NCBI GenBank assembly: GCA_023145595.1
Contig: JAGLDM010000242.1
Coordinates: 1 to 20,745, forward strand
Direction of reading: 5' to 3'
DNA length: 20,745 nucleotides
From: Flavobacteriaceae bacterium
GTDB lineage: Bacteria; Bacteroidota; Bacteroidia; Flavobacteriales; Flavobacteriaceae
A program made the translations under genes and the position numbers. Positions 6,090 through 20,745 of this stretch are shown one piece after another (the stretch's first letter is position 1; the number at the start of each line of letters is the position of its first letter). The notes beneath the pieces were generated by a model. That model was not told where the DNA came from and searched no databases. It was given only the letters and a program-made list of their open reading frames with translations.

Positions 6090-6237
6090 CAAAGGCTACG
6101 CACACTATAGCGTTTTTTATAAGAAGTCGTTAAAAATCACAAAATAGATGTAGTTACGGATTTTGAAAGATTAGAACAATTTTGAAAAGATACACACCAC
6201 GATATTACGGGTTTTACGCAGAAAAAAAGAAAACATC
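6090..6237 (+). other. 148-base gap; possible coding remnant before the glycan genes
   Basis: No intact gene is present. One plus-strand frame between stop codons reads EVVKNHKIDVVTDFERLEQF, then a TGA, then KDTHHDITGFTQKKRKHH. The composition looks more protein-like than spacer-like. This could be the remains of a decayed gene lost between yfhO and the glycosyltransferase, or chance. No promoter box was found here. Confidence 0.25.
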
Positions 6238-7428
6238 ATGAGAATTGGAATGATTTTAGACAAAACGTTTCCGCCCGACCCTAGGGTAGAAAACGAAGCA
6301 GTCGCATTAATCAATTCTGGCCATCAGGTTTTTCTGTTTAGTTTGACGTATGATAAAAATGAAGAGAGTTCTATCATAAATAAAATTGAAGTCAAGCGAT
6401 ATAAATCCAATAAGTTGGAGTACAAATTATCAGCCTTGGCTTATACTTTTCCTTTTTACAAATGGTTGATGCAATCTAAAATCAACCATTTTTTAGTCGA
6501 AAATAAAATAGAGGCAATTCATATTCACGATATAAGAATTGCAGAAGCCACTTTTAAAGCGAATAAAAAATTGAATCTGCCAGTTGTTTTGGATTTGCAT
6601 GATAATATGCCGGAAATCATAAAATTGTATCCGCATCTTCAAAAGTTCCCAGGAAAACAACTCATTTCTCCTTTAAGGTGGAAACAGAAAGAAGAAGAAT
6701 TTATTCAAAAGGCAGATAAGATAATTACGGTTTCGCAAGAATTTGTGAACGAGGTTGTGGAGCGAACAAATATCAAAAAAGATAAAATAGTTTTGGTTCC
6801 TAATACGGTTCAGAAATCATTTTATGAAGATGCAACCATAAATAAATCAATAGTAGAAAAATACAAAGATGATTTTGTAATTTTATATTTGGGAGATACC
6901 GGATTGCGTAGAGGTTTGCAAACTGCCATTGAAGCGGTTTCATTATTGAAGTTTAAGATACCAACGATTAAATTGGTGATTGTTGGGAAAAACACCACCG
7001 ACTCAATTTTGAAAAAACAAGTAATCGATTTAGGAATTGAAAGTTTTGTTGATTTTGAAGGTTGGCAAAATGTTGAATTATTTCCTTCGTATATTGTAGC
7101 AAGTTCGGTTTGTATATCGCCTTTACATAGAAACATTCAACATGATGTTGCCTATGCGAATAAATTGTTTCAATATATGAGTTTTTCGAAACCTGTTTTG
7201 GTAAGTGACGCAACTGCTCAGAAAAATTTGATTGAAAAAACAAATTCAGGTTTGGTTCATGAAGAACGAAATTCTGAGGAGTTTGCTACAAAAATATTGG
7301 AATTATATACAGATTTGGGATTAAGAAATGAGTTGGGTGTCAACGGGAAATATTTTATTGAAAATGAATTTTGTTGGGAGAAAACATCAAAAAAGTTAAT
7401 TGAACTCTACGATAATTTAGAAAATTGA
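6238..7428 (+). CDS. Glycosyltransferase, GT-B fold (GT4-like)
   Basis: This 396-residue cytoplasmic or membrane-associated glycosyltransferase would move a sugar from a nucleotide donor to a growing lipid-linked glycan. The N-terminal Rossmann domain opens with MRIGMILDKTFPPDPRVENE, the typical GT-B start with a glycine/basic acceptor loop. IEAIHIHDIRIAEA and LDLHDNMPEI follow. The linker KADKIITVSQEFVNEVVE leads to the C-terminal donor domain. That domain shows ILYLGDTGLRRGLQTAIEAV (the start of the family-1 domain), KLVIVGKNT, and FQYMSFSKPVLVSDATAQKNLI near the C-terminus. The usual E-x7-E donor motif is not cleanly present, so donor and linkage cannot be predicted. The ATG at 6238 gives a standard start. 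The stop overlaps the next gene. Confidence 0.85.
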   Translation: MRIGMILDKTFPPDPRVENEAVALINSGHQVFLFSLTYDKNEESSIINKIEVKRYKSNKLEYKLSALAYTFPFYKWLMQSKINHFLVENKIEAIHIHDIRIAEATFKANKKLNLPVVLDLHDNMPEIIKLYPHLQKFPGKQLISPLRWKQKEEEFIQKADKIITVSQEFVNEVVERTNIKKDKIVLVPNTVQKSFYEDATINKSIVEKYKDDFVILYLGDTGLRRGLQTAIEAVSLLKFKIPTIKLVIVGKNTTDSILKKQVIDLGIESFVDFEGWQNVELFPSYIVASSVCISPLHRNIQHDVAYANKLFQYMSFSKPVLVSDATAQKNLIEKTNSGLVHEERNSEEFATKILELYTDLGLRNELGVNGKYFIENEFCWEKTSKKLIELYDNLEN

Positions 7429-8684
7429 AGGTTTTAATAATTACATATTATTGGCCGCCTGCAGGTGGAAGCGGAGTTCAGCGTTGGTTGAAGTTTGTAA
7501 AGTATTTTCGAAATTTCGGGATTGAGCCAGTTATTTATACTGTTGAAAATCCGAATTATGCGTTGGAAGATGAAAGTTTGTTAAAAGACATTCCTGATGG
7601 AATTGAAGTTTTAAGGCAACCGATTTGGGAACCAAATAATTTAATGGGGAACAAAAAGCAAACAAGTGCTGGTTTTTTGAATTCAAGCCCGAGTTTAGTC
7701 GGAAAAGTTTTGCAATACATTCGCGCGAATTATTTTATTCCTGATGCTCGTAAATACTGGATAAAACCTTCCGTTGAATTTCTTTCAGAATATTTAGAGA
7801 AAAACCAAATTGATGTGGTGATTTCTACAGGCCCACCACACAGTATGCACTTAATAGGATTGGGCCTTAAAAAGAAATTGGGCATTAAATGGATATCCGA
7901 CTTTAGAGATCCATGGACAGAGATTGATTATTTCCATCAGTTACCATTAACCGAAAAATCAATTAAGAAGCATCAAAAATTGGAACAGGAAGTTCTTGAA
8001 AATTCCGATTCGGTAATTGTTGTTGGAGAAACCATGAAACAGAATTTTTCAACATTCAATTCAAACATTCATGTGATTACAAATGGTTATGACACTGAAC
8101 TTAAAACAGAAAGTGTTGAACTCGATAAAAAGTTTAGTTTAACTCATATTGGTTTGATGAATGAAGATCGAAATCCGAGTGTGTTATGGAAAGTATTGTC
8201 TGAAATAGCAGTTTCCAATAAAAATTTCTCAAGTGATTTAGAAATAAAGTTGATAGGGAAAGTATCCAAAGTGTGTCTAGATGAATTGGATAACAATAAT
8301 TTAGGTAAAAATCTAAATTTAATAGATTACTTGGCTCATAATGAGGTGCAATTGCACCAAAGATCTGCACAGGTGTTATTGCTTGCCATTAATGATGTGC
8401 CGAGTGCAAAGGGAATTATAACAGGTAAAATATTTGAATATTTGGTTGCCAAACGTCCGATATTGGCTATTGGACCTGTAGATGGAGATTTGGCACAAAT
8501 CTTAAACGACACAGATTCTGGAGTTATCATTGATTTTAAAAATGCGGTTTCGCTAAAATCAACTATTTTAGAACTTTATAAAAAGTATAAAAATGAATCA
8601 TTAAAAGTAAATTCAAAAAACATAGAACAGTTTCATAGAAAAAACTTAACCGAAAAATTGAGTAAACTAATTAAAGCCATTTAA
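7425..8684 (+). CDS. Glycosyltransferase, GT-B fold, TTG start
   Basis: This is a 419-residue glycosyltransferase. It begins MKVLIITYYWPPAGGSGVQR, a characteristic N-terminus of a flavobacterial GT4-like group, with the glycine-rich loop next to WLKFVKYF. The first domain ends with VVISTGPPHSMHLIGLGLKK and WISDFRDPWTEIDYF. The second contains THIGLMNEDRNPSVLWKVL and GKIFEYLVAKRPILAIGPVDGD, matching the family-1 donor-binding end. The start is TTG at 7425. It overlaps the preceding stop as TTGA, no ATG lies nearby, and the frame is closed by a stop at 7413-7415 just upstream. The usual family N-terminus begins exactly here. The stop overlaps wecB by one base (TAATG). Donor and acceptor sugars are unknown. 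Confidence 0.88.
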   Translation: MKVLIITYYWPPAGGSGVQRWLKFVKYFRNFGIEPVIYTVENPNYALEDESLLKDIPDGIEVLRQPIWEPNNLMGNKKQTSAGFLNSSPSLVGKVLQYIRANYFIPDARKYWIKPSVEFLSEYLEKNQIDVVISTGPPHSMHLIGLGLKKKLGIKWISDFRDPWTEIDYFHQLPLTEKSIKKHQKLEQEVLENSDSVIVVGETMKQNFSTFNSNIHVITNGYDTELKTESVELDKKFSLTHIGLMNEDRNPSVLWKVLSEIAVSNKNFSSDLEIKLIGKVSKVCLDELDNNNLGKNLNLIDYLAHNEVQLHQRSAQVLLLAINDVPSAKGIITGKIFEYLVAKRPILAIGPVDGDLAQILNDTDSGVIIDFKNAVSLKSTILELYKKYKNESLKVNSKNIEQFHRKNLTEKLSKLIKAI

Positions 8685-9766
8685 TGAAAAAAATAGTAAC
8701 CATTTTAGGGGCAAGACCACAATTTGTAAAAGCGGCAGTTTTGAGTCGAGTGATTTCAAATCACAACGATTTGGAGGAGGTAATTGTACATACTGGTCAG
8801 CATTACGATGCTAATATGAGTGACGTTTTCTTTGAAGAAATGGAGATTCCGAGCCCTAAATACAATTTAGAGATTCACGGTTTAGGACATGGTGCTATGA
8901 CGGGGCAAATGATGGAGAAAATAGAGGCTGTTTTAAATTTAGAAAAACCGGATTCTGTTGTGGTTTTTGGAGATACTAATTCGACCATAGCAGGTGCTTT
9001 AACAGCGAAGAAATTACATATAAAAGTCATACATATTGAGGCTGGGTTGCGTTCGTTTAATATGGAAATGCCAGAAGAAATCAATCGTATTTTAACCGAT
9101 CGAATTTCAGATTTATTGTTATGCCCAACGGATACGGCAATACATAATTTGCGAGACGAGGGTTTTGATAATTTACCAATTACTGTTGTGAAATCGGGAG
9201 ATATAATGAAGGATGCAGTTAACTTTTATAGCAAAACTTCTGCGGAAAAATCCTCAATTATTTCTGATTTGAATTTAACTTCGAATAATTTTGTTTTAGC
9301 AACCATTCACCGCCAAGAAAACACCGATAATCTGTCAAAATTAAAGTCGATTTTTGAAGGGTTAGAGTCTATTTCAAAAAGAAAAAAAGTAGTGATGCCA
9401 TTGCATCCTCGGACTAAAAAAATATTAGAGAGCCATAATTTGAGGTATGATATTGCTTTTATAGATCCAATAGGGTATTTTGATATGCTCGAATTATTAA
9501 AGCATTGTAATTTGGTAATTACAGATAGTGGTGGATTGCAAAAAGAGGCTTTTTTTAATAAAAAGCATTGTATTATTGCTCGTGAAGAAACGGAGTGGAT
9601 TGAATTGGTAACAAATGGATTTGCAAAAATAATTGGTTCAGATTCTGCTGAAATGAAATTGACATTTGAAATGTTTCAAAACTCAAAAATTGACTTTTCG
9701 ATGAACTTGTATGGAGATAAGGTGGGAGAAAATATCTATTCAGAAATAACAAAACTTTTAAATTAA
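8684..9766 (+). CDS. wecB: UDP-N-acetylglucosamine 2-epimerase (non-hydrolysing)
   Basis: WecB interconverts UDP-GlcNAc and UDP-ManNAc in the cytoplasm, supplying ManNAc or a derivative for surface glycans. Its 360 residues match the family length. The motifs appear in order: LGARPQFVKAA with Arg11 and Lys16; VHTGQHYDANMSD; VFGDTNSTIAGAL with Asp97; HIEAGLRSFNMEMPEEINR with Glu119 and Glu131/132; ATIHRQENTDN with His209; LHPRTKK; and TDSGGLQKEAF, which binds the UDP moiety, followed by REETEWIEL. The active-site residues known in bacterial epimerases are therefore all present. No ManNAc dehydrogenase (wecC) follows, so either ManNAc itself is used or oxidation is encoded elsewhere. The gene is coupled to its neighbour by a TAATG overlap. 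Confidence 0.95.
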   Translation: MKKIVTILGARPQFVKAAVLSRVISNHNDLEEVIVHTGQHYDANMSDVFFEEMEIPSPKYNLEIHGLGHGAMTGQMMEKIEAVLNLEKPDSVVVFGDTNSTIAGALTAKKLHIKVIHIEAGLRSFNMEMPEEINRILTDRISDLLLCPTDTAIHNLRDEGFDNLPITVVKSGDIMKDAVNFYSKTSAEKSSIISDLNLTSNNFVLATIHRQENTDNLSKLKSIFEGLESISKRKKVVMPLHPRTKKILESHNLRYDIAFIDPIGYFDMLELLKHCNLVITDSGGLQKEAFFNKKHCIIAREETEWIELVTNGFAKIIGSDSAEMKLTFEMFQNSKIDFSMNLYGDKVGENIYSEITKLLN

Positions 9767-9771
9767 TCACC

Positions 9772-11232
9772 TTGGGAATTGTCTTAAAACAATCATTTAG
9801 AAATACGCTAATTCTTATTGTAGGATTTGCTGTTGGTGGTGTAAATGCATTGTTTTTATACACTAAGTTTTTGGAGGGTGAGTATTATGGATTAATTATT
9901 TTCTTGTTATCGTCATCGGTGTTGATTTTACCATTAGTAGTATATGGAATGCAGCATGCCGTAGTTAAATATTTTTCTTCTTACAACTCTAAATCAGAAA
10001 GAGACAGTTTGCTTTCATGGTCTGTAATTGCGCCTATTTTTATAATTATTCCAATCGGATTTATAGGAACCGTTTTTTACGAAGCCATATCAACAGCACT
10101 TTCTTTAAAAAACGAATTGATAAAAGAGTACGCCTATTTAATCTTTCTAGTGGCTGTTTTTATGGGCTATTTCGAAGTGTTTTATGCTTGGACAAAAGTG
10201 CAGATGGATTCTGTATTTGGAAATTTTATCAAAGAAGTTTTTGCTAGGGTAGGAGTCACAATTTTACTATTTAGTGTTTATTATAAGTGGATAGATACAA
10301 ATCAATTTATCTATGGTGTAGTGATCATTTACTTTCTTAGAATGTTACTTATGAAGATCTACGCACTCTCGATTTACATGCCTAAATTCACATTAAAAAT
10401 CCCACATAACTTTAAAGAAGTGTTACATTATTCGATGTATTTAATTTTGGCAGGATCAGCTGGTTCAATTCTATTAGAAATTGATAAATTTATGATTCCG
10501 CAAGTCGAAAAACTAGCAGAATTGGCCTATTATTCTGTGGGTGTTTTTATAGCATCTACTATTGGTATTCCGAATAGAGCAATGCAGCAAATTACGAATC
10601 CGATTACTGCAAAAGATTTGAATAGCAATGATATGGAGGCGGTTGAAAAACTGTATAAACAAAGTTCAATTAATTTATTATTGATTGGTGGTTTGTTGTT
10701 TTTGCTGATTAATTTGAATATCAGCGATATGTATTTAATAATAAACGAGCCAAATTATTCTGTGGCTGTTTGGGTAGTATTAATGATTTCTATTTCTGAA
10801 TTATATAAATTAGCTTTGGGAACCAACGGTGCTATTTTAACAAACTCTAAATACTACAAAATATTCTTTTATTTCTCCTTGGCAATGGCAGGAACTGTCA
10901 TTGTTTTGAATCATTATTTGATTGAACTTTTAGGAATTAATGGAGCCGCATTGGCAACTTTAATTACCATATTAATATTCAACACCATCAAAGTGTTTTA
11001 TATAAAATCAAAGTTGAATATGCAGCCTTTTACAAAGAAAACGATTGCTGTTTTAGGGATTATTGTGCTGTTATTTGGCCTCTTTTATTTTGTGGAATTG
11101 CCTTTTAATCCGTGGATAAATATTATTGTAAAAAGCGGAATTATTACGGTTGTTTTTACAGTAACAATCTATTTTTCAAAAATATCAACAGAAGTAAATG
11201 AGTTGATTGAAACGTACTTGTTGAAAAAATAA
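9772..11232 (+). CDS. Wzx-like polysaccharide flippase (MATE/MOP superfamily), TTG start
   Basis: This 486-residue polytopic inner-membrane protein has about 12-14 hydrophobic helices along its whole length. It begins MGIVLKQSFRNTLILIVGFAV, then NALFLYTKFLEGEYYGLIIF, the usual opening of flavobacterial polysaccharide or O-antigen export proteins. A central loop carries GSILLEIDKFMIPQ and SVGVFIASTIGIPNRAMQQI, and the C-terminal part has LLGINGAALATLI; all are typical of this superfamily. It would flip lipid-linked oligosaccharide across the inner membrane. The start is TTG at 9772, five bases after wecB. The frame has no ATG upstream before a stop at 9718-9720, and the first internal Met would remove the first two helices. 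It closes the glycan operon and converges with the next gene 12 bases away, with no clear hairpin terminator between them. Confidence 0.88.
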   Translation: MGIVLKQSFRNTLILIVGFAVGGVNALFLYTKFLEGEYYGLIIFLLSSSVLILPLVVYGMQHAVVKYFSSYNSKSERDSLLSWSVIAPIFIIIPIGFIGTVFYEAISTALSLKNELIKEYAYLIFLVAVFMGYFEVFYAWTKVQMDSVFGNFIKEVFARVGVTILLFSVYYKWIDTNQFIYGVVIIYFLRMLLMKIYALSIYMPKFTLKIPHNFKEVLHYSMYLILAGSAGSILLEIDKFMIPQVEKLAELAYYSVGVFIASTIGIPNRAMQQITNPITAKDLNSNDMEAVEKLYKQSSINLLLIGGLLFLLINLNISDMYLIINEPNYSVAVWVVLMISISELYKLALGTNGAILTNSKYYKIFFYFSLAMAGTVIVLNHYLIELLGINGAALATLITILIFNTIKVFYIKSKLNMQPFTKKTIAVLGIIVLLFGLFYFVELPFNPWINIIVKSGIITVVFTVTIYFSKISTEVNELIETYLLKK

Positions 11233-11834: not shown

Positions 11835-12257
11835 ATGGACGCGCAAAAAACCTTAATTTTTTTAAATGAGCATATCGTTAAAGGAACTTTAATGGAGACA
11901 TTAGATATAAAATATGTTGAGGTTGGAGTAGATTATGTAGTGGCAGAAATGCCGGTGAATTCACGAGTTCATCAACCTGCAGGATTATTACATGGTGGCG
12001 CAACTGCTGCTTTGGCAGAAAGTACAGGGTCGGCAGCATCTCATTTATTTGTAGATATAGAGAAGTATGAAGTGAGAGGTTTAGAAATTACGGCAAATCA
12101 TGTAAGAAGTGTGAAAAGTGGAGTTGTGCGAGCCACTGCACGTCCTATCCATAGAGGGAAAACAACACATTTATGGGAAATAAAAGTAACGGATGAAGAA
12201 GGTCAGTTAATCTCGATTTGTAAATTAACCGCAATTTTGATTCCTAAAAAAAAATAA
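11835..12257 (+). CDS. menI: Hotdog-fold thioesterase, likely DHNA-CoA hydrolase (MenI-like)
   Basis: This 140-residue hotdog-fold acyl-CoA thioesterase has the segment HQPAGLLHGGATAALAESTG (about residues 46-65). It closely follows the E. coli YdiI/MenI active-site helix, with the HGG motif at 53-55 and Glu62 as the probable catalytic carboxylate. The downstream strand pattern (VRGLEITANHVRSVKSGVV, RPIHRGKTTHLWEIKV) also fits the YdiI/PaaI family. MenI hydrolyses 1,4-dihydroxy-2-naphthoyl-CoA, a step in menaquinone synthesis. The location directly upstream of menF and menD in the same direction supports that role. A broader acyl-CoA thioesterase of PaaI type remains possible from sequence alone. 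The start is ATG at 11835; the gap to menF is 52 bases. Confidence 0.85.
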   Translation: MDAQKTLIFLNEHIVKGTLMETLDIKYVEVGVDYVVAEMPVNSRVHQPAGLLHGGATAALAESTGSAASHLFVDIEKYEVRGLEITANHVRSVKSGVVRATARPIHRGKTTHLWEIKVTDEEGQLISICKLTAILIPKKK

Positions 12258-12309
12258 TGAATGCCTCGTTTTGTTAGGGAAGGGGTTTATTGTTAAAAGT
12301 GATTGAAGA

Positions 12310-13350
12310 GTGAAAAAATTAAGAGATACTATTTTAAAAGCACTACAAAATGATTTTCCTTTTGTAGTGTATAGGAAGCCAAGTACCACTAAAATATTAG
12401 GTGTGTTTCAAAGGTGCGCTACCTCAGAAGTTGTTGAAGAACTGGATGAGGAAGGGTTTTTATTTGCGCCTTTTGATGATTCTGGTGAATCGTTTATAAT
12501 TCCTTTTAAAAATGCTAATAAAATAAATTTCGAACAAGTTTCTATAGAAATAAATACTTCCAATCCCGAAACTCCATCAGATGAAAATAAAAAACAACAT
12601 ATATCTTTAGTTGAGTCGGGAATAGATTTTATTAAAAAATCAAAAGTTGAAAAGGTTGTTTTGTCTCGTAAAGAAGAAGTGAATATTCATGATTTTAACG
12701 AGGTGTCAACTTTTATGAAATTGTGTAATTGCTACCCGAATGCTTTTGTTTATTTATGGAATCACCCAAAAACAGGTATGTGGATGGGAGCATCACCAGA
12801 ACGTTTGTTGTCAATAGATGATCGTAAATTTAAAGTAATGGCATTGGCTTCTACTCAAGAATATAAAGGAGATTTAGAAGTGAATTGGGGAGCAAAGGAG
12901 AAAGAAGAACATCAATATGTGGTAGATTATATTGCTGCTAAGATTCAAAACTTTGATCTTTCCATTTCGGAAACATATACGGTTAAGGCAGGAGATTTAT
13001 TGCATTTACGGGCAGATATTTCTGGAGTTATTCCGTTTGGAGTTAAGTCAAAAGAAACATTGATAAAAGTATTACACCCAACGCCTGCAATCTGCGGATT
13101 GCCAAAAGAAGAGTCAAAACTATTTATTTTAGAAAACGAAAATTACAATCGAGAATACTACACAGGTTATTTAGGAGAATTGAAAAAGGATTCAACTGAT
13201 TTATTCGTAAATTTAAGATGTATGAAAGTTGATTTGAAAAATAAAAAAGTCAATATTTACGTGGGTGGCGGAATTACAAAAGATTCAAATTCAGAAAAAG
13301 AGTGGTTAGAGACGGTTGCAAAAACAGGGGTGATGAAAAAGGTGCTTTAA
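12310..13350 (+). CDS. menF: Isochorismate synthase MenF, GTG start
   Basis: MenF converts chorismate to isochorismate, the committed step to menaquinone. Its 346 residues are shorter than E. coli MenF (about 430), as is common in flavobacteria where the N-terminal region is reduced. The C-terminal chorismate-binding domain is clear: VEKVVLSRKEEV with Lys115 as the candidate general base; MWMGASPERLL; AKEKEEHQYVVDYI with Mg-binding Glu200; LHPTPAICGLPKE; NREYYTGYLGEL with Glu282; and IYVGGGITKDSNSEKEW. The segment usually read as AGT in this superfamily is AST here (residues 180-182). The start is GTG at 12310. An in-frame TGA lies two codons upstream and the next Met is deep in the domain, so GTG is well supported. 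Confidence 0.93.
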   Translation: MKKLRDTILKALQNDFPFVVYRKPSTTKILGVFQRCATSEVVEELDEEGFLFAPFDDSGESFIIPFKNANKINFEQVSIEINTSNPETPSDENKKQHISLVESGIDFIKKSKVEKVVLSRKEEVNIHDFNEVSTFMKLCNCYPNAFVYLWNHPKTGMWMGASPERLLSIDDRKFKVMALASTQEYKGDLEVNWGAKEKEEHQYVVDYIAAKIQNFDLSISETYTVKAGDLLHLRADISGVIPFGVKSKETLIKVLHPTPAICGLPKEESKLFILENENYNREYYTGYLGELKKDSTDLFVNLRCMKVDLKNKKVNIYVGGGITKDSNSEKEWLETVAKTGVMKKVL

Positions 13351-13377
13351 TCCCAATTTAAAATTCATTTCTTTACG

Positions 13378-13385
13378 TACCTTTG
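13378..13385 (+). promoter_or_regulatory. Candidate -7 box before menD
   Basis: TACCTTTG matches TAnnTTTG exactly and sits 20 bases before the menD ATG, inside the 55-base menF-menD gap. It may give menD and the downstream gene their own promoter besides read-through from menF. No clear TTTG box lies at the -33 position. Confidence 0.45.
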
Positions 13386-13405
13386 TGCCAGATTAAAACT
13401 TCTGA

Positions 13406-15061
13406 ATGCCACAATTTCCCAAAAATGAATTAGCCCAACTAGTAATTGCCTCATGCGTGGCAAATACTGTAGATCAGGTGGTTATTTCTCCTGGGTCTAG
13501 AAATGCTCCTTTAACTATTGGCTTTGCCAATCATCCAGATATAAAAGCGTATAGTATTGTAGATGAGAGGAGTGCGGCTTTTTTTGCTTTAGGTATCGCA
13601 CAGCAAACTCAAAAACCGGTTGCTGTTGTTTGTACTTCGGGTTCTGCATTGTTAAATTATTATCCGGCGATTTCAGAAGCGTTTTATAGTCATATTCCGT
13701 TGATAGTTATTTCGGCAGATCGCCCAAAAAACATGATAGATATTGGTGATGGTCAAACCATACGTCAAGAAAATGTATTTGGAAATCATATCTTGAGTTC
13801 TGTAAATTTGGGAATTGATTCAAAAGAAAATCAAAATAAATTAAAAGAGGCTTTTAAAAAATCAATTCAACAAAGAGGACCGATTCATATTAATGTTCCT
13901 TTTGACGAGCCATTGTATGAAGTGGTTGATGCGATGATGAAAATTGAGCCGTCAGAAATTGAAAATATAGATATTCCTTTAGATGTAGATGAATTACAAA
14001 AATTTGCAAATATCTGGAATGCTTCTTCTAAAAAGATGGTATTGCTTGGGACATCTTTTCCAGATGAATTATTACAAGTACAATTAAATAAAATTATTAA
14101 AGACGATTCGGTAATTGTATTGACAGAATCGACTTCAAATGTACACCATGTAAACTTTATTAACGGAATTGACAAAATAATTTTTACGTTGGATGATGAA
14201 GCACTGGCAGAATTAAAACCTGAAATTTTATTAACGTTTGGTGGAATGATTGTTTCTAAAAAAGTGAAGCAGTTTTTACGGAAATATCAGCCTAAGCACC
14301 ATTGGCATGTTGATTTACATAGAGCCTTTGATACATTTTTCTGTTTGTCGAATCATTTTAAAGTTTCGCCACAATTGTTCTTTAGTCAGTTTTTCTTTTT
14401 AACAGAAGATAGAGAAAGTGATTATCAAAGTAAATGGTTAAACATTAAAAAAGCAAGGACTAATGCTCATCAAAAGTTTTTGGATGCGTGTGATTATTCT
14501 GATTTAACGGTGTTTGAATCAGTGTTAAATTCTGTTCCAGATCATTCGCAATTGCAATTAAGTAATAGTTCTATTATTAGATATTCTCAGTTGTTTGATT
14601 TGAATCCGACTCTAAAAGTTTTTTGCAATAGAGGAACAAGCGGAATTGATGGTAGCACAAGCACTGCTATAGGAGCAGCATCAATTTCAGGAAATAAAAC
14701 GGTTTTTATTACAGGTGATATTAGTTTCTTTTATGATAGTAATGCACTTTGGAATCAGCATATAAAATCTGATTTTAGAATCATTATTATCAATAATAAT
14801 GGAGGTGGAATTTTTAAGTTTATTCCAGGACCAAAGGAAACCAATGCATTGTCTTATTTTGAAACTCCGCATGGTTTAACAGCAAAGCATTTGGCAAAAA
14901 TGTATGGGCTTGAATATATAAATGCAAGTAATATAGAAGAGGTTGAGATTACTTTGAAAAATTTCTATCAAGATTCTGAAAAACCAAAAATATTGGAAAT
15001 ATTTACGTCAAGTAGTCAAAATGATTTAATTTTAAAATCATATTTTAAAACATTAAAATAA
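13406..15061 (+). CDS. menD: SEPHCHC synthase MenD (ThDP enzyme)
   Basis: MenD is 2-succinyl-5-enolpyruvyl-6-hydroxy-3-cyclohexene-1-carboxylate synthase. It joins 2-oxoglutarate, decarboxylated on thiamine diphosphate, to isochorismate, the step after MenF in menaquinone synthesis. The 551 residues match the family. The N-terminal Pyr domain shows VISPGSRNAPLTIGF and VDERSAAFFALGIA; Glu54 is the conserved ThDP-activating glutamate, and TSGSALLNYYPAISEA follows. The PP domain has FCNRGTSGIDGSTSTAIGA and then the ThDP/Mg motif, from GDISFFYD (Gly437-Asp438) to NNNGGGIF (Asn463 on), about 28 residues apart as expected. The ATG at 13406 is the natural start, directly before NELAQLVIASCVA, which matches other MenD starts. 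Confidence 0.97.
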   Translation: MPQFPKNELAQLVIASCVANTVDQVVISPGSRNAPLTIGFANHPDIKAYSIVDERSAAFFALGIAQQTQKPVAVVCTSGSALLNYYPAISEAFYSHIPLIVISADRPKNMIDIGDGQTIRQENVFGNHILSSVNLGIDSKENQNKLKEAFKKSIQQRGPIHINVPFDEPLYEVVDAMMKIEPSEIENIDIPLDVDELQKFANIWNASSKKMVLLGTSFPDELLQVQLNKIIKDDSVIVLTESTSNVHHVNFINGIDKIIFTLDDEALAELKPEILLTFGGMIVSKKVKQFLRKYQPKHHWHVDLHRAFDTFFCLSNHFKVSPQLFFSQFFFLTEDRESDYQSKWLNIKKARTNAHQKFLDACDYSDLTVFESVLNSVPDHSQLQLSNSSIIRYSQLFDLNPTLKVFCNRGTSGIDGSTSTAIGAASISGNKTVFITGDISFFYDSNALWNQHIKSDFRIIIINNNGGGIFKFIPGPKETNALSYFETPHGLTAKHLAKMYGLEYINASNIEEVEITLKNFYQDSEKPKILEIFTSSSQNDLILKSYFKTLK

Positions 15062-15067
15062 TATAGT

Positions 15068-15487
15068 ATGAGTTACAAAGTAGGAGATAAGGTTGATTTA
15101 GTAATTGGGAGACTATCTCGATTGGGATTTACAGTTTTAATAGATAAGGATGTAGAAGGGCTGCTTTACAAAAATGAACTTTATGTAAAACTTGCCGAGG
15201 GTGATGAAAAAGTAGGTTTTATTAAAAAAATTCGTGAGGATGGAGGAATTGATGTGAGTTTGCAGCCTATAGGTTTCAAAAAAACCTTGGTTAAAAATGA
15301 AATCAAACTTTTGGACGAACTTAAAAAGAAGGAAGGCTTTATAGCATTACACGATAAAAGCAGTCCAGATGATATAAAACATCAAATGAACATGAGTAAA
15401 AAAGCATTTAAAAGTGCTATTGGCGGCTTGTATCGTTTAAAATTAATCACTTTAGAGGATGACGGAATCCACTTAGTTGAATATTAG
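15068..15487 (+). CDS. Short CvfB/YitL-like RNA-binding protein (S1-like plus winged helix)
   Basis: This 139-residue cytosolic protein begins MSYKVGDKVDLVIGRLSRLG and continues FTVLIDKDVEGLLYKNEL, an S1-like OB-fold strand pattern (about residues 1-62). From about residue 75, HDKSSPDDIKHQMNMSKKAF and AIGGLYRLKLITLEDDGIHL form a helix-turn-helix and wing pattern. This S1 plus winged-helix pair corresponds to the C-terminal half of CvfB (YitL), whose full form has about 280 residues with extra S1 domains. The protein is therefore a short form of the family, or half of a gene reduced long ago; the clean ATG start at 15068 and six-base gap to menD argue for a working gene. CvfB proteins bind RNA and affect virulence regulation in staphylococci; the role here is unknown. 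The downstream gene converges. Confidence 0.75.
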   Translation: MSYKVGDKVDLVIGRLSRLGFTVLIDKDVEGLLYKNELYVKLAEGDEKVGFIKKIREDGGIDVSLQPIGFKKTLVKNEIKLLDELKKKEGFIALHDKSSPDDIKHQMNMSKKAFKSAIGGLYRLKLITLEDDGIHLVEY

Positions 15488-15542: not shown

Positions 15543-15570
15543 GGTAATATTAAAATTATTAATATTCACC
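15543..15570. terminator. AT-rich inverted repeat between convergent genes
   Basis: GGT-AATATTA, a 7-base loop and TAATATT-C-ACC form a 10-bp stem with one bulged base. It overlaps the stop codon of the minus-strand hydrolase and lies 56 bases after the plus-strand CvfB-like gene. Position suits a shared terminator, but the stem is AT-rich and the U-tract is poor in both directions. Confidence 0.3.
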
Positions 15571-16776
15571 TTCTTCCCATTCGTATTCTTCTTTTTTCAC
15601 TTCTCCTTCTTTTACTTCTTTTGTGTTCACTTTATTAAGAACACGCTCTATGTTTTTGTAAAAACTCTCTGCGGCAGCGGGGTCTCCTTCAATTTTCATA
15701 TATCCTGATTTAAAAGCATCAAGAGATTCTTTGTATTTATCTCTATATTCAAAATCTAATCCGGTATAATAATCACCCAAAGGAGACTCTGGATACAATT
15801 CAAAAATCATTTCTCCAAACTCTCTTAAATGCTTTCCATTTTCCTGGTCTATAATAATAGGCTCAATGGCGTAAATATCACGTTCTCTAATTTTTAAATT
15901 ACTTCCAAAAAAGTGTTCAATGTTAACATATTTATTCTTTAAATAAGCAATGGCATCTAGGGGTGATAAATCTTTAACATGTGTTTCAAATTCTTCTTTT
16001 GTTATGGCAGAGAAGATGTCAAAGATAAAAGAAAAGGCACTCGGCATTGATTGTGAAATAGATGCGGTTAATGAACTTTCGTTAAATTCATCATATTTAT
16101 AGTTAAATTTAGTGTTTGATTTTTCTGATAGCACTTCATTAACAAGTTTAATTTGTGTTTGTTTAGACTTGGAATGATAATCCCCAGAACTCATATAGAA
16201 GTGATAGTTAAACATTTTAACTTTATTTATACTGTTTCCAAGAATCCCTGCCATATTTGGTGCGAAATACGGGTTTATAATGATAAAAGCATCAAACCCA
16301 GGTTCTTCTTCTATAAATAAATAACTGGCAAAATTGGCAGTTAGGGTATTTCCAACTATTGTTTTAAACGGAGATATTCTATAGTTACTACTTAAGTAAT
16401 TAAGCAACTCTCCTCTTATAAATCGGTAAAAGGATTCACTTCTCCCAGAAGGGTAACTCGTATCTTCGTTATAACCGCAATCTACATAGCGCCTATCTCC
16501 ACCTTGACTAATCCCAATTACAATTTGTTCAGGTGCTTTTTCTTTTTGCGAAAATAAAACGGAGTTCCCTACATAGAGGTCAAATAAATAATCTGCATCT
16601 AAAACAATAGCGACAGGGTAAGGTTTTGTTTCATTTTCGTGGTAGGAGGGGGGTAAATAAACCCGAATTTCTCGAACTTCATCTAATTCATAAGAATGAA
16701 TTTTTTCTTTATAGGTTGATTGCGAAAACATTGAAATTACTAAGAAGAGGTTTAATGTGAAAAATATTTTTTTCAT
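15559..16776 (-). CDS. Secreted esterase-like alpha/beta-hydrolase with atypical nucleophile elbow
   Basis: This is a 405-residue exported protein. The signal peptide MKKIFFTLNLFLVISMFSQS has likely cleavage near Ser-Gln. From about residue 28 to 260 it follows the putative esterase (Fes/esterase D) fold: REIRVYLPPSYHENE, YPVAIVLDADYLFDL, QIVIGISQGGDRRYVDCGYN, FYRFIRGELLNYLSSNYRI and KTIVGNTLTANFASYLF. In active members the last segment carries the G-x-S-x-G nucleophile elbow; here it reads G-N-T-L-T (residues 142-146), so serine is replaced by threonine and the final glycine is missing. A C-terminal helical part (about 310-380, with LREFGEMIFELYPESPLGDY) looks TPR-like. The last 20 residues are Glu/Lys/Tyr rich. 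The gene lies 31 bases after the 1233-residue phosphatase-barrel gene, same strand, probably one operon. It may be a non-catalytic or altered hydrolase. Confidence 0.75.
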   Translation of the reverse strand: MKKIFFTLNLFLVISMFSQSTYKEKIHSYELDEVREIRVYLPPSYHENETKPYPVAIVLDADYLFDLYVGNSVLFSQKEKAPEQIVIGISQGGDRRYVDCGYNEDTSYPSGRSESFYRFIRGELLNYLSSNYRISPFKTIVGNTLTANFASYLFIEEEPGFDAFIIINPYFAPNMAGILGNSINKVKMFNYHFYMSSGDYHSKSKQTQIKLVNEVLSEKSNTKFNYKYDEFNESSLTASISQSMPSAFSFIFDIFSAITKEEFETHVKDLSPLDAIAYLKNKYVNIEHFFGSNLKIRERDIYAIEPIIIDQENGKHLREFGEMIFELYPESPLGDYYTGLDFEYRDKYKESLDAFKSGYMKIEGDPAAAESFYKNIERVLNKVNTKEVKEGEVKKEEYEWEEGEY

Positions 16777-16807: not shown

Positions 16808-19800
16808 TTAAAATCCAAAGCCCATTCCAAACCGAATATAAGCACCTTCATTTGAGTTAAAAATGTAAAAATTTAAATTAATCAATTTGGCTCCAACCGC
16901 CCAAAATCCAACACCATAAGATGTTTTCCAATCGGTTGATTCTTCGCTGTTTAGCCAAACTCTACCGTAGTCAAAACCTGCTAACATTCCTAATTCTAAG
17001 GGAAGTAAAGGGGTTTTTATACGGTCAAACTTGTATCGAATATCGGTATTTTGATAATAAGAACGGTTTCCGGTAAATCGCTGATTTCGGAACCCTCTTA
17101 ACCCATCTTTTCCTCCAATACTCGCCGCATTATAGAATTGAAAATGATCACCAATTATTATATTTCCTTTAAATTTTGTTGCTAAAACAACTTTTCCTTC
17201 AGGAGTTAATTTATGGTTAAAACTCAATTCGGGCCTAATATACGCATTATGTTCGGCTTTTATTCCTAAATTAGTTTTCCATCCAGTTTCTACGGCAAAT
17301 TTCATCCCCATGGTTTGTAGAGCTTTGTTATCGTAGTTCTCATATTTGTAAATAGCATTTACACCTACAAAGTCTTGACGTTCATCAGAAACATCAGGGA
17401 TGTTTTCTATAAAGCGCCCAGTAGTTTTTTCTACTTCGGCAGTTTGAAATAGCGCTCCAAGTTTTAATATACTTCCCATGCGACCTGTCCATTTAAGCGA
17501 TGGGTTGGCAGTAAACGAGGCTGTTTTTACTCTGTAGTATTCTTTTCCCAGAGCATCATCATCATTGATCGTTTCATTTCCCCATCCAAAAAAGTTGACG
17601 CTGTAGTTAGTACTTGTAAATTGGCTAAATAAATTAAAATTCCAATTATGAATGATGTTTCCAATTTCCATGTCAAATTTCACGTCATACCCGCTCGTTG
17701 CAAAATAATAATTGAAGTCAACGTTATACAGTTGGGTGTATGGATTTCCGTTAAATCCATATTTGTAAAAACTATTTTTCACACCAATTCTAAACCCGTC
17801 ATCAGGATTGGCCCCCATTTTTGGTATAATTATATTTCGTTCGCTTTTTAAGCGTTTGTAATCATATGTGTTTATTGAATAGTCATCTAGACGATACACT
17901 GTTCCTTTGTCTGTGGTAAAGGTGTTTTTTTTCGAGTTGAAATCATAGATTATCACCTTTTTTCCGCTCTCTATATTATAGGTGTCATTGTTTTGACCGC
18001 CAATAATTCGCAGTCTGATAACATTTGTATCTTCTCCATTAACATTAAAAATATCTTTATCACGCAGTCCATACATCCAAATTTCTTTGGTCATACCTTT
18101 GAGATATGTTTTTTCAAATATTTTAGAATCTTTTGAGCCTTCTTTAATATTGAATATTTTTATTGTAGTGTCACCATTGGCAAGTCTATTAACATCAAAA
18201 ACATTGTCTTCGTCCGTGCCCTTTATAACAGCATTTTTATGGAGTTCTTCATAATATTTTTTGGCTACTTTTTGCAAATTTGAGATGCGTTCCAAAAATA
18301 TCTTCTTAATTTTTTTGGTGGTTTCTCCTTGTACTTCATAAGGCATTTGCTTAAAAGCAGAATCTATAATTTCGGGAGTCAAATGTTCTTGTAGAAATTT
18401 TGCCTGGGTAAGCCAATCGTCTATAGTAGATTCAGAGGTTAGGGAGATATCTAAAGGGAAGGCTTCTATATTAAACCATTTAACACTTTTCATTTTTGGC
18501 TTGTATTCTTGCATTAATTTAAACTCTCTTACTAGGGCAGTAACAGTTTTTAAAGCAAACCCATCAGAAGTTGAAAATGCTTTATCTCGGCCTCTTGGAA
18601 TTGGTCTGTAAATGGTCTTTTCATCTTTTTTAGTTACTGTCCAGCACCATTGATCTTCATATCGATTCCAATCTCCGATTGCCATATCAAACAAACGAGC
18701 TCTAATATACATGGTCTCATCTAACACATGTTTGTCAGATTTTTTCAAATTATGAAGTAAATCTTGGGTGTTAATGATTTTGTTTGAATATCCAAAACGC
18801 TCAACATTTTCATGACCAAAAAAAACTAGTTCTTCAATCATGTATAATTCGTCACCGAATGCTTTATTGTACTTTCCAAGTCTATTTTGTTTAGGTACAT
18901 AGAATAATTTGGGATTGGTATGGTATAAACCAACCGCATCAGAAAGTATTGCATTTGTAAAAGAGGCGTAAGGGTGGGCAATTGTGTAAATATCCAGAAG
19001 CAATTCCTCTGTATAGGTGTCAATAAATTGCTCATCGATATATTGATCTTTAAAAGCAACTTCTTGAAAATATTGAGCAGTACTTTTCCGTAGGGCTCTC
19101 ATGGTGTATTCCCTACCATCTTTATCTTTTAACCTGATTGATCTTGATTGCTGTCCGTCTCCTTTTCGGATAGGTGTTAACCCACCGTATAGGGTGTCTA
19201 ATAAAACAGTTTTAGCTTCAATTCTTGTGCTATAATCATCACGGTAATGCTCTCCCCAAATACGTTTGTAAAACGGACCTTTATTTGTTTCTCTGTGCGT
19301 ATAAACAGACGTTTTTATAGTTTTTGGAAAAGAATCACTGTATTTGTTTAAATCTATTTCAGGGTTTTTTGGATAAATTTCTTTTCTGAATAGTAAGTTT
19401 TGTTTTTTATCAGATTCCGAATAATAATAGACCCAACTAGCTCCGTTTTTTAGAACTTCTATTTTAGCATACCCTATTCCCCCGTAAGAGAAAACTCCGT
19501 TATCTGTAACTCTAGTAGCTGTTTTTGTTGATCCTGAACCACTAATGATTTGAACTTTGTTTGCGTGTTCTAGGTATTGTAAACTATGCTCATGTCCCGA
19601 TAAAAAAATGACTTTCTCTGCCTTCTGTGAAATAGTAGTTATGCGTTTTTGATATTTAAGGTAGATCGGGTTTTGAAGATCTTGAGGATAGGCACCGCTG
19701 GTTTTTCTGAGAAGGTTAATAAACGACCCTGCTACGGGTAATGGAATTTTATTATTTATTGGAAATAGTTGTTGTTTTAAAGAGTATTGACCACCATGAG

Positions 19801-20509
19801 AGCCATTGCTATACATGGGGTGGTGCAAGGCTACGAATATAATTTTACCGTCGTTCTTTTTAATTAAGGCTTCAAACTCTGAGAAAAAACGTTCACGAGT
19901 TTTAATTTCACATTGATTGTTCATCGTGAGGTTTTTATCCCAATCTTCTAGGTACCACTGAGAGTCAACTAAAATTAAAACAATTTCATTCGAGATATCA
20001 ATTTCATCTATGGGACAACCATTCTTTGGTAAAAAAGAAATTTTGTCATCCAATTGTTTTGCAATGTATTCCTGTTCTCTTTTTAAGCCGATGATACCGT
20101 CATTATAATAATCGTGATTTCCTGGAATAAAAATTGTGTTTCCATTAAATTCTTTAACAATAGATAATTGAGTATCTATACTTTGCTCAGCGTATAACCT
20201 ATCGGGATCCGTTTTGTTAGGCATCCCTTTTTTATAGGTGTTATCACCCAAATAAAGTACTGTTGAATTTTTAGAAGCACTAGAAAGTTCTGTTTTTAAG
20301 GCTTCAAAATTTGATTGTATATGCTTATTATTAGCCCCCCCTCCATCTCCAATTAAATAAAAAGTATGTGCAATTTCACTTTCAGTGCCTTTAGTCGCTT
20401 CTTTCCATTTTTCGGCATTCTCATGGTATTGCGCATCATAAGTTGCACAACCTGACATTAAAAGAATAATAATAACGAATGAAAGTTTGTCGTTTATAAA
20501 TCGACTCAT
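16808..20509 (-). CDS. Multidomain envelope protein: lipoprotein signal, metallophosphatase, kinase-like region, Omp85-type barrel
   Basis: This is a 1233-residue envelope protein. Residues 1-21 form a signal ending LLMSGC, so Cys21 is a likely lipidation site. Residues 48-312 are a calcineurin-like phosphatase with all metal motifs: GDGG (Asp55), LGDN (Asp89), GNHD (130-133), HH (229-230) and GHEH (305-308). Residues about 445-745 form a separate helical-rich region with IGDWNRYEDQW and YRPIPRGRDKAF, resembling the catalytic and metal loops of atypical kinases; this is inference. Residues about 805-860 have GLRDKDIFNVNG and GGQNNDTYNIES, like RTX repeats. From about 890 to the end, amphipathic strands and GGKDGLRGFRNQRFTGN fit an Omp85/TamA-type barrel with the LRGF loop, ending in Phe. 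No POTRA domain is evident. Phosphatase-barrel fusions are known in Bacteroidota, usually annotated only as metallophosphoesterase. The substrate is unknown. It is the first gene of a two-gene unit. Confidence 0.85.
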   Translation of the reverse strand: MSRFINDKLSFVIIILLMSGCATYDAQYHENAEKWKEATKGTESEIAHTFYLIGDGGGANNKHIQSNFEALKTELSSASKNSTVLYLGDNTYKKGMPNKTDPDRLYAEQSIDTQLSIVKEFNGNTIFIPGNHDYYNDGIIGLKREQEYIAKQLDDKISFLPKNGCPIDEIDISNEIVLILVDSQWYLEDWDKNLTMNNQCEIKTRERFFSEFEALIKKNDGKIIFVALHHPMYSNGSHGGQYSLKQQLFPINNKIPLPVAGSFINLLRKTSGAYPQDLQNPIYLKYQKRITTISQKAEKVIFLSGHEHSLQYLEHANKVQIISGSGSTKTATRVTDNGVFSYGGIGYAKIEVLKNGASWVYYYSESDKKQNLLFRKEIYPKNPEIDLNKYSDSFPKTIKTSVYTHRETNKGPFYKRIWGEHYRDDYSTRIEAKTVLLDTLYGGLTPIRKGDGQQSRSIRLKDKDGREYTMRALRKSTAQYFQEVAFKDQYIDEQFIDTYTEELLLDIYTIAHPYASFTNAILSDAVGLYHTNPKLFYVPKQNRLGKYNKAFGDELYMIEELVFFGHENVERFGYSNKIINTQDLLHNLKKSDKHVLDETMYIRARLFDMAIGDWNRYEDQWCWTVTKKDEKTIYRPIPRGRDKAFSTSDGFALKTVTALVREFKLMQEYKPKMKSVKWFNIEAFPLDISLTSESTIDDWLTQAKFLQEHLTPEIIDSAFKQMPYEVQGETTKKIKKIFLERISNLQKVAKKYYEELHKNAVIKGTDEDNVFDVNRLANGDTTIKIFNIKEGSKDSKIFEKTYLKGMTKEIWMYGLRDKDIFNVNGEDTNVIRLRIIGGQNNDTYNIESGKKVIIYDFNSKKNTFTTDKGTVYRLDDYSINTYDYKRLKSERNIIIPKMGANPDDGFRIGVKNSFYKYGFNGNPYTQLYNVDFNYYFATSGYDVKFDMEIGNIIHNWNFNLFSQFTSTNYSVNFFGWGNETINDDDALGKEYYRVKTASFTANPSLKWTGRMGSILKLGALFQTAEVEKTTGRFIENIPDVSDERQDFVGVNAIYKYENYDNKALQTMGMKFAVETGWKTNLGIKAEHNAYIRPELSFNHKLTPEGKVVLATKFKGNIIIGDHFQFYNAASIGGKDGLRGFRNQRFTGNRSYYQNTDIRYKFDRIKTPLLPLELGMLAGFDYGRVWLNSEESTDWKTSYGVGFWAVGAKLINLNFYIFNSNEGAYIRFGMGFGF

Positions 20510-20745
20510 GCTTTTTTATAAAATTAAAAGTTTAAAAGTACGTAAAATAATGTGTTTTAAGAGGTTTCGATTGAAACAAATCTCCGCTAAAAACAGTTTT
20601 GTAATGTTTTGAGAATCGAGATTGTTTTGTTTGTAATAATTATGAAAATAACATTTTAAACAACCTGTCAAGTGTCTAATTATTAACGTCTTGAATCGTT
20701 TGGGGGTGAAATTATTCTTGTGAAACGAGATGTAATTCATACTTG
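20510..20745. other. Upstream region of the phosphatase-barrel gene; no gene seen
   Basis: This is AT-rich DNA with no convincing gene. A minus-strand open frame exists, but its residues show no family pattern and are rich in Asn, Lys, Ile and Leu as expected from AT-rich spacer. The minus strand carries TACTTTTA (20533-20540), one base off the TAnnTTTG -7 consensus, 24 bases before the ATG at 20509. It is a weak promoter candidate. Confidence 0.4.

Follow-up and report, generated by a model that had tools for sequence, protein, structure and literature searches.

We analyse here a gene in a 20,745-nucleotide stretch of DNA from a Flavobacteriaceae bacterium (GenBank assembly GCA_023145595.1, contig JAGLDM010000242.1, positions 1 to 20,745), hereafter the window, together with the family of Bacteroidota proteins to which its product belongs. 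The open reading frame (ORF) at 16808-20509 of the minus strand is uninterrupted over 1233 amino acids (aa), without internal stops, and its product joins a lipoprotein signal, a metallophosphoesterase, a kinase-like domain (KIN), a small beta domain and an Omp85-type barrel (Table 1). With 3543 proteins related to it at E <= 1e-3 among 7997 scored, this architecture is not a product of chance; the 120 matches listed are 1083-1258 aa long. In the names shown, sources label members of the family only 'metallophosphoesterase', 'phosphoesterase', 'BamA/TamA family' and the like. A pattern search of viral contigs matched six stretches, none of which holds a relative.

Conservation was assessed on 153 aligned long proteins, comprising the 120 listed relatives (the window's copy among them) and 33 proteins from fetched loci. 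Position 21 is cysteine in 149 of these and falls in a gap in the other four. A strict lipobox pattern matches 72/117 fused proteins against 0/116 phosphatase-less ones, from which little can be drawn because the pattern is strict and the phosphatase-less set consists of relatives of one protein. The Metallophos model PF00149 matches residues 65-245 (E 1.5e-10; 42.3 bits, cut-off 21.5). The window keeps all eight metal-site residues checked (D55, D89, N131, H132, H229, H230, H306 and H308), each of them conserved in 146-153 of the 153 long proteins, and so has the complete motif set of a calcineurin-like metallophosphoesterase; the nearest PDB matches of this domain by sequence are purple acid phosphatases, including tartrate-resistant acid phosphatase (TRAP), and are weak (best E 0.0017). 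At the C terminus, ShlB (PF03865) matches residues 1127-1201 with 28.7 bits against a cut-off of 22.7, and the NCBIfam model Omp85_fam matches residues 1099-1228 with 62.6 bits, under its cut-off of 200. The arginine of the LRGF-type motif is conserved in 153/153 long proteins, and PF01103 matches a homologous, separately encoded barrel (L148:6910-8097; E 7.7e-13; loci and genomes are cited by our own L and G numbers), so that the C-terminal sequence carries the Omp85/ShlB-type barrel features of the Omp85 superfamily. POTRA domains, one or more of which are usual in the Omp85 superfamily, are absent from the Pfam matches at E up to 1, a range in which the HMMER filters drop most matches above 0.1, and the other assigned domains fill the chain. 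A sequence-only reading of this gene had proposed a lipobox, a complete calcineurin-type metal site and a C-terminal barrel with the Omp85 LRGF motif but no POTRA domain, and the Pfam matches, the conserved metal site and the motif alignment confirm that architecture.

The same reading had left two middle domains unassigned. They proved to be mostly one domain: alignment of 54 full-length and 14 short proteins delimits residues ~393-786 as a single conserved unit that also occurs standalone, followed by a small beta domain that accompanies it. The kinase-like character of this unit, the degeneracy of its active site in the window and its tie to a membrane protein were not visible without tools. 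Standalone KIN, 410-423 aa long and with a hydrophobic segment at its N terminus, is encoded in the genomes of 2/60 relatives (L021, L022), and a search with the 410-aa version retrieves 903 proteins at E <= 1e-3, shown among the 120 matches listed as hypothetical or uncharacterized protein. In the loci fetched by then, where some ORFs were cut by locus ends, the phosphatase-KIN-beta-barrel form accounts for 144 ORFs, KIN-beta-barrel for 10, KIN-beta for 8, and KIN alone and partial KIN with a barrel for 2 each. In two genomes of one genus (L147, L148) the fusion is split into three consecutive genes for KIN-beta, phosphatase and barrel, with lipoprotein signals that can be read by eye on the KIN-beta and phosphatase genes of L148. 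In the members scanned, KIN is covered by neither a Pfam nor an NCBIfam model, and a single-sequence PDB search with the standalone domain gave no match at E up to 10.

Residue conservation within KIN was measured on 501 distinct homologous fragments, matched at E <= 1e-10 before divergent copies were fetched (526 rows, 506 of them distinct, with the window set apart and four gap-rich fragments dropped; some proteins may be counted twice with different ends). K475, D608, D613, R616 and W621 are invariant, and D615 (499 fragments), H617 (496), D640 (498) and D642 (498) nearly so. The window carries D615N, H617Y and D640G, so that of the residue set of active members (K475, D615, D640, D642) it has asparagine at 615 and glycine at 640, and its two nearest relatives, 81% and 73% identical, retain an intact site. 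Of the 89 KIN columns in which 119 homologues agree to 97% or more, 10 are changed in the window, against a mean of 0.66 for the others; two of these departures, A624T and F626T, are common to its two nearest relatives, and the count of 10 is equalled only by P0083, itself degenerate. Departures at conserved columns elsewhere number 2/72 in the phosphatase and 1/61 in the barrel, and changes at all sites, in the window against its nearest relative, number 39 versus 15 in the phosphatase, 38 versus 9 in KIN and 23 versus 15 in the barrel. Since reading frame, phosphatase site and barrel have been kept, the pattern suggests a pseudokinase and not a dead gene. The substitutions may stem from sequencing or assembly error, but as judged from the sequence the window copy most likely acts as a phosphatase whose pseudokinase part is a scaffold without catalysis. 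Elsewhere, one genome carries the fusion gene as a tandem triplet (L025:5484-16535) in which the kinase-like site of the middle copy is degenerate and those of the outer two are intact.

The commonest neighbour of KIN genes, found at 60/89 loci, encodes a protein of ~400 aa with an HD and a PycTM domain (Pfam on two members). It is present at 59/80 named loci, mostly divergently transcribed and with a median gap of 55 base pairs (bp). In Flavobacterium johnsoniae strain CI04 (L101), HD-PycTM begins 27 bp upstream of the gene for a relative of 1248 aa. The C-terminal membrane domain of this neighbour is scored by PADLOC models as PycTM and as a 2TM effector and is matched by the Pfam PycTM family too, and hydropathy indicates three transmembrane segments in each of the seven PycTM proteins looked at. 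PycTM has been described as forming a pore that disrupts membranes (PMC11224242, in the part available). Pfam scans of eight neighbour proteins found no pyrimidine cyclase, for which no dedicated search was made. Association beyond adjacency was evaluated in a phylum draw of 296 Bacteroidota genomes, a strong PycTM being a match of at least 94 bits, a threshold chosen after the list had been seen. KIN occurs in 112 of these genomes and strong PycTM in 95: both in 92, KIN only in 20, PycTM only in 3 and neither in 181, that is, strong PycTM in 92/112 genomes with KIN against 3/184 without. The association holds at 80 bits (Fisher P 1.6e-48) and for any match (P 4.3e-42), both values uncorrected for phylogeny, and in 78/92 genomes, over 19 families, the KIN and PycTM matches start no more than 12 kilobases (kb) apart on one contig. 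Among 60 relatives, a long PycTM protein (frame of 390-501 aa) is found in 34/35 KIN genomes and in 0/25 KIN-less ones; the single KIN genome without it is the window's own, and among those without KIN one has just a short PycTM. The partner need not be complete, nor the fusion: the PycTM half alone adjoins intact KIN in some families (L225-L229, L240), and KIN-beta-barrel forms without the phosphatase also lie near HD-PycTM (L233, L234, L235, L236, L239), the phosphatase being therefore optional.

HD-PycTM is found as well in genomes of family f65 without any KIN match (L288 and L289; G352 and G531, and G424 by match), which is a use independent of KIN. Conserved PycTM genes whose distribution follows KIN, such as L003:5275-6489 and L225:2061-2630, score as PycTM or 2TM effectors in a defence library and are possible false positives of defence-finding tools.

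At the window itself, the 236 bp between the fusion gene and the contig end contain nothing like HD-PycTM (best tblastn E 0.022). In the nine other genomes of the same genus with the fusion, HD-PycTM lies 13-114 bp upstream in all nine, eight divergent and one on the same strand. The same upstream search detects HD-PycTM at 10/10 control loci (E 1e-17 to 6e-42), which, having been chosen as already carrying the gene, demonstrate no more than that the search is able to see it. A search of the window's whole genome, 77% complete in 460 contigs, found no PycTM. As far as can be seen, the window therefore follows a rule in which the partner is absent and the site degenerate.

Table 1. The fusion gene, its parts and its immediate flanks, in window coordinates.
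Feature	Position	Strand	Basis
Whole ORF, 1233 aa: lipoprotein signal, metallophosphoesterase, kinase-like domain, beta domain, Omp85-type barrel	16808..20509	-	Pfam, NCBIfam, alignment
Lipoprotein signal peptide (residues 1-20) and lipidation cysteine (Cys21)	20447..20509	-	Cys21 conservation
Metallophosphoesterase (residues ~45-385), metal-site residues present	19355..20377	-	PF00149, site alignment
Kinase-like domain, KIN (residues 393-786)	18152..19333	-	Standalone copies L021 and L022; hhalign; PDB profile search
Degenerate catalytic loop: codon 615 AAT (N; D in the family), codon 617 TAT (Y; H in the family)	18659..18667	-	Codons, 501 fragments
Degenerate metal-binding motif: codon 640 GGC (G; D in the family)	18590..18592	-	Codon, 501 fragments
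Small beta-rich domain (residues 787-893), travelling with KIN in split and barrel-less versions	17831..18151	-	Locus comparison
Omp85-type barrel (residues 894-1233), GLRGF at 1136-1140, C-terminal F	16811..17830	-	Pfam, NCBIfam, motif alignment
Putative esterase (PF00756), downstream, same strand	15559..16776	-	Pfam
Upstream stretch to contig end, without HD-PycTM gene	20510..20745	.	tblastn best E 0.022, taken as chance

That rule was examined across the phylum draw by scoring the active site of the best KIN copy in each of the 112 KIN genomes. The site is intact in 92/92 genomes with strong PycTM, and without it 7/20 are intact and 13/20 degenerate; with any PycTM match as the criterion, intact sites number 92/95 against 7/17 (P 8e-8, uncorrected for phylogeny). 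Four degenerate copies (L214, L215, L217, L224) adjoin a protein that matches the HD half only, weakly in L215 and L217. In G274, one of the intact exceptions, the remains of a PycTM gene (E 1e-4), riddled with stops, end ~135 bp before the fusion gene, as a recent loss would leave them. A class draw made later, whose 247 genomes overlap with the phylum draw, contains 22 KIN genomes, of which 18 have PycTM at 80 bits or more and four do not (G000, G294, G444, G469). Among the six newly scored, G409, G440, G416 and G534, where PycTM is present, have intact sites, and G444, where it is absent, is degenerate as the rule expects. On a KIN tree built without seven catalytic columns the intact state changes at least five times, and several degenerate rows form long branches; contrasts started instead from PycTM differences number six, averaging 3.9 in the expected direction, 0 against it and 2.1 without a difference. 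An extra degenerate KIN copy accompanies intact ones in two genomes with PycTM, G223 and G130; their loci (L145, L146) hold several extra KIN-beta genes, of which one in each genome carries D615S and H617R.

Several observations weigh against a dependence of KIN on PycTM. Adjacency is not universal, as 21/80 named loci lack HD-PycTM in the fetched stretch, and among the 225 class-draw genomes that lack KIN, 7 have PycTM at 94 bits or more. Of the 13 rows scored as degenerate, three (G071, G072, G296) come from incomplete matches that align poorly. An intact site persists in seven genomes without strong PycTM; five belong to one genus (G106, G155, G261, G273, G308), and these five and G342 are without explanation. 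In the class draw, the sixth newly scored genome, G469 (69% complete), lacks PycTM and has an intact KIN site. Only five independent contrasts are available from the KIN tree, averaging 4.7 in the expected direction and 0 against (sign test p 0.0625). Loss of HD-PycTM from the window's genome is likewise not proven, given its 77% completeness and a contig that ends at 20745, 236 bp upstream of the gene. The fusion gene of G469 is apparently frameshifted within the barrel (two overlapping ORFs at L282:2540-6347), which may be an assembly error.

The identity of KIN bears on every interpretation. Before any test we took the pattern GDWDRH...PRDRD as similar to that of CotH, HipA and FAM20 kinases at the catalytic loop and the metal motif, and the order of motifs, K followed by a hinge-like E, D-x-D-R-H and D-x-D, reads as kinase-like. 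Remote comparisons agree in direction and fall short in strength. A PDB search with a KIN profile returned CtkA, a HipA-like kinase, as its top match, aligned at the catalytic loop (E 0.049 with 19 sequences, 0.16 with 59), but these values are not significant and unrelated chains follow closely at E 0.14 and 0.29. HipA_C is matched at E 0.14 in 1/19 KIN members, no curated cut-off being reached, and CotH is absent from the Pfam families listed for those 19. In a first hhalign run (59 KIN sequences, 29 comparisons) CotH ranked first by score and HipA third, with a decoy between them whose P of 0.020 was slightly better than CotH's 0.021. In a second run, which set 570 KIN sequences against CotH, HipA, 27 neighbour-gene families and two reversed controls (31 comparisons), CotH came first by both score (30.2) and P (0.0085), and HipA second by score (25.2) and third by P (0.025), one decoy being slightly better at 0.024; all probabilities stayed under 5%. 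CotH and HipA both pair the GDWDRH loop with the kinase catalytic loop, and CotH also pairs PRDRD with its D-x-D motif. PF06702 (FAM20C) is not among the Pfam matches of the window protein at E up to 1; a genome search with that model gave no match in any genome, controls included, and is thus uninformative.

Every kinase match is therefore insignificant when taken singly, and a kinase-type fold is the best reading that the remote matches suggest together. KIN could instead be another metal- or nucleotide-dependent enzyme, for instance one of AMP or glycan transfer or of hydrolysis, or a sensor, its likeness at the catalytic loop being convergent. The closeness of some decoys and the lack of a fitting Pfam or NCBIfam model speak for this, as does the periplasm, which is thought to be without ATP; against it, CotH and HipA had been named before the test and gave the two best scores of 31, aligned at their catalytic loops, and the kinase-like motif residues are those lost in degenerate copies. 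We regard it as possible, if doubtful. A different challenge is that the linkage of KIN and PycTM is inherited gene order without function, and that site decay in PycTM-less genomes reflects fast-evolving lineages. The common divergent arrangement may indeed be the synteny of one clade (57 opposite-strand and 2 same-strand upstream among the 80 named loci), several degenerate copies sit on long branches, and the window's phosphatase, with the changes counted above, is fast as well. Adjacency nevertheless extends over 19 families in several orientations, co-occurrence is also found where the genes lie apart (14/92), PycTM without HD goes with intact KIN (L225-L229, L240), HD without PycTM goes with degenerate KIN (L214, L224; weakly L215, L217), and the window's changes at conserved columns concentrate in KIN; we consider this explanation unlikely.

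Two further alternatives concern where the protein acts and on what. The sequence-only reading had offered either a self-secreted surface phosphatase or a periplasmic enzyme docked on a pore. Export of the enzyme chain to the cell surface by the barrel, along type Vd lines, gains from the presence of translocators in the Omp85/TpsB superfamily (PMC4104836, in part) and from the existence of surface-exposed lipoproteins in Bacteroidota (PMC12045153, in part). It is nonetheless very improbable, because no POTRA domain was found in the window protein, the enzyme domain of PlpD, with which that reading had compared the protein, was later reported to stay in the periplasm (PMC11116518, available text), and both the phosphatase and KIN are also encoded separately, without a barrel, KIN in some genomes with an N-terminal membrane anchor. 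The docked periplasmic enzyme is accordingly the option we retain, with the location itself only predicted. Anchoring at both ends, which had been seen as a topological puzzle, has a precedent in the same phylum: TamL is an N-terminally lipidated Omp85 protein whose lipid and barrel are both proposed to lie in the outer membrane (PMC12045153, available text), and both anchors can thus sit in that membrane. As to the substrate, KIN might phosphorylate the PycTM protein itself and decay once that substrate is gone, which would produce the same co-occurrence and decay pattern. With three transmembrane segments, however, PycTM would leave only a short loop and a tail outside if its HD end is cytoplasmic, and partner and KIN would lie in different membranes in most architectures, so that we hold this proposal to be quite improbable.

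Taken from the sequences, domain order, conservation, gene linkage, co-occurrence and residue loss point to a periplasmic, outer-membrane-tethered phosphatase and pseudokinase that stem from a system of kinase and phosphatase coupled to a PycTM protein of the inner membrane, a reading that we judge, on balance, probable. Lipid and barrel would both reside in the outer membrane with the enzymes on its periplasmic side, as proposed for TamL (PMC12045153) and reported for PlpD (PMC11116518), respectively, in the portions of those papers available. The purple-acid-phosphatase-like domain would be lipid-anchored and followed by KIN, joined through the beta domain to the POTRA-less barrel, which would fix kinase and phosphatase at the outer membrane. 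In most relatives KIN is probably an active phosphotransferase, opposing the phosphatase on envelope substrates, and its catalysis would depend on an inner-membrane PycTM-type protein, usually encoded nearby. The dependence of the KIN active site on PycTM suggests that PycTM may supply or control what KIN needs, perhaps a phosphate donor. In the window's lineage, the partner gene would have gone from its conserved site and the kinase-like site decayed, only the phosphatase half being likely catalytic. A bolder version, which we put forward as speculative and unlikely as it stands, is a trans-envelope phosphorylation system of Bacteroidota. In it PycTM, akin to nucleotide-gated pores known from phage defence, would release a nucleotide or another phosphate donor from the cytoplasm, and this would supply a periplasmic kinase tethered to the outer membrane, against which, in many species, a phosphatase of the same chain would work. 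Once PycTM is lost, the kinase would starve and its active site decay, as in the window.

Parts of this system have known counterparts. Phosphatase-Omp85 fusions have been recorded since 2014 as the 'Metallo' subfamily (Heinz & Lithgow, PMC4104836), which, like the window protein, combines a PF00149 domain with an Omp85 barrel, the latter likened there to 'noNterm' barrels. Unlike our reading, the available text of that source calls 'Metallo' a metalloprotease with an open topology whose conservation is confined to the genus level, and it names no middle domain, split operon or PycTM link. PlpD and other patatin-Omp85 proteins share the N-terminal enzyme and C-terminal Omp85 barrel, with the enzyme periplasmic in PlpD, but in the available account of type Vd they have a patatin domain and POTRA and no kinase-like domain (PMC11116518), the window protein having neither patatin nor a detected POTRA domain. 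TamL shares the lipidated N-terminus and the Omp85 barrel in Bacteroidota, yet has three POTRA domains and no enzyme domains mentioned in the text available (PMC12045153), where the window protein has Cys21 and no POTRA found. To CotH, HipA and CtkA, KIN shows a remote profile likeness, not significant match by match, in the catalytic-loop pattern, and for CotH in the metal motif too; it differs in reaching no curated cut-off, in its context and in its presumed extracytoplasmic location. FAM20A and FAM20C belong to a secretory-pathway kinase family whose pseudokinase member keeps a role (PMC5413348, PMC4421793, both in part), and the likeness to KIN drawn here is one of theme. The neighbour's membrane domain matches models of Pycsar PycTM and 2TM effectors, but, unlike in Pycsar as described in the available part of PMC11224242, PycTM occurs here either as a fusion with an HD domain or by itself, and it is linked with an outer-membrane enzyme. 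Titles and abstract openings in the open-licence literature yielded nothing on a kinase-like domain in Omp85-phosphatase fusions or on a PycTM link, and in the main text, as available, of a recent paper on the Bacteroidota barrel assembly machinery (BAM; PMC12611786) the terms phosphatase, kinase and metallophos- do not occur. The fusion itself is thus already known, and what appears new, as far as that literature goes, is the kinase-like family, its life as a separate gene, its link to PycTM and the linked decay.

Other genes accompany the fusion. The esterase gene lies 31 bp downstream, and strong relatives of it were found only in L001-L008, L035 and L036 among the fetched loci, many of which have short flanks. 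A gene for a propeller-like protein, without a useful PDB match (E 0.041), neighbours KIN at 57/89 loci; it is convergent and downstream in most named loci that have it, and in distant families (L028-L030, L239) an SdiA-regulated-like propeller gene sits immediately upstream and shares a few bases with the fusion or KIN-barrel gene. Farther along the window, positions 3657-11232 hold a surface polysaccharide cluster with genes for a YfhO-like membrane protein, two glycosyltransferases, a UDP-N-acetylglucosamine (UDP-GlcNAc) 2-epimerase and a polysaccharide synthesis/flippase-like protein. At 11835-15487 stand genes for a thioesterase, a chorismate-binding enzyme and a thiamine pyrophosphate (TPP) enzyme, which appear to resemble the start of menaquinone synthesis, and then a CvfB-like winged helix gene.

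A widespread Bacteroidota protein family thus seems to include a kinase-like family that had gone unrecognised and that, in many families of the phylum, is linked with a membrane domain otherwise familiar from phage defence, and the match between presence of the partner and integrity of the active site constitutes a natural experiment. It makes testable whether bacteria with two membranes (diderms) carry out phosphorylation of envelope targets beyond the cytoplasm, and which donor they use, as well as what role PycTM-type proteins have when they are not defence effectors; it also carries a warning, since defence-finding models score these conserved PycTM genes. Export of a phosphate donor through PycTM, if true, would explain how a kinase outside the cytoplasm of a diderm is supplied with its donor; a defence effector would then have either its origin or a second use in envelope physiology.

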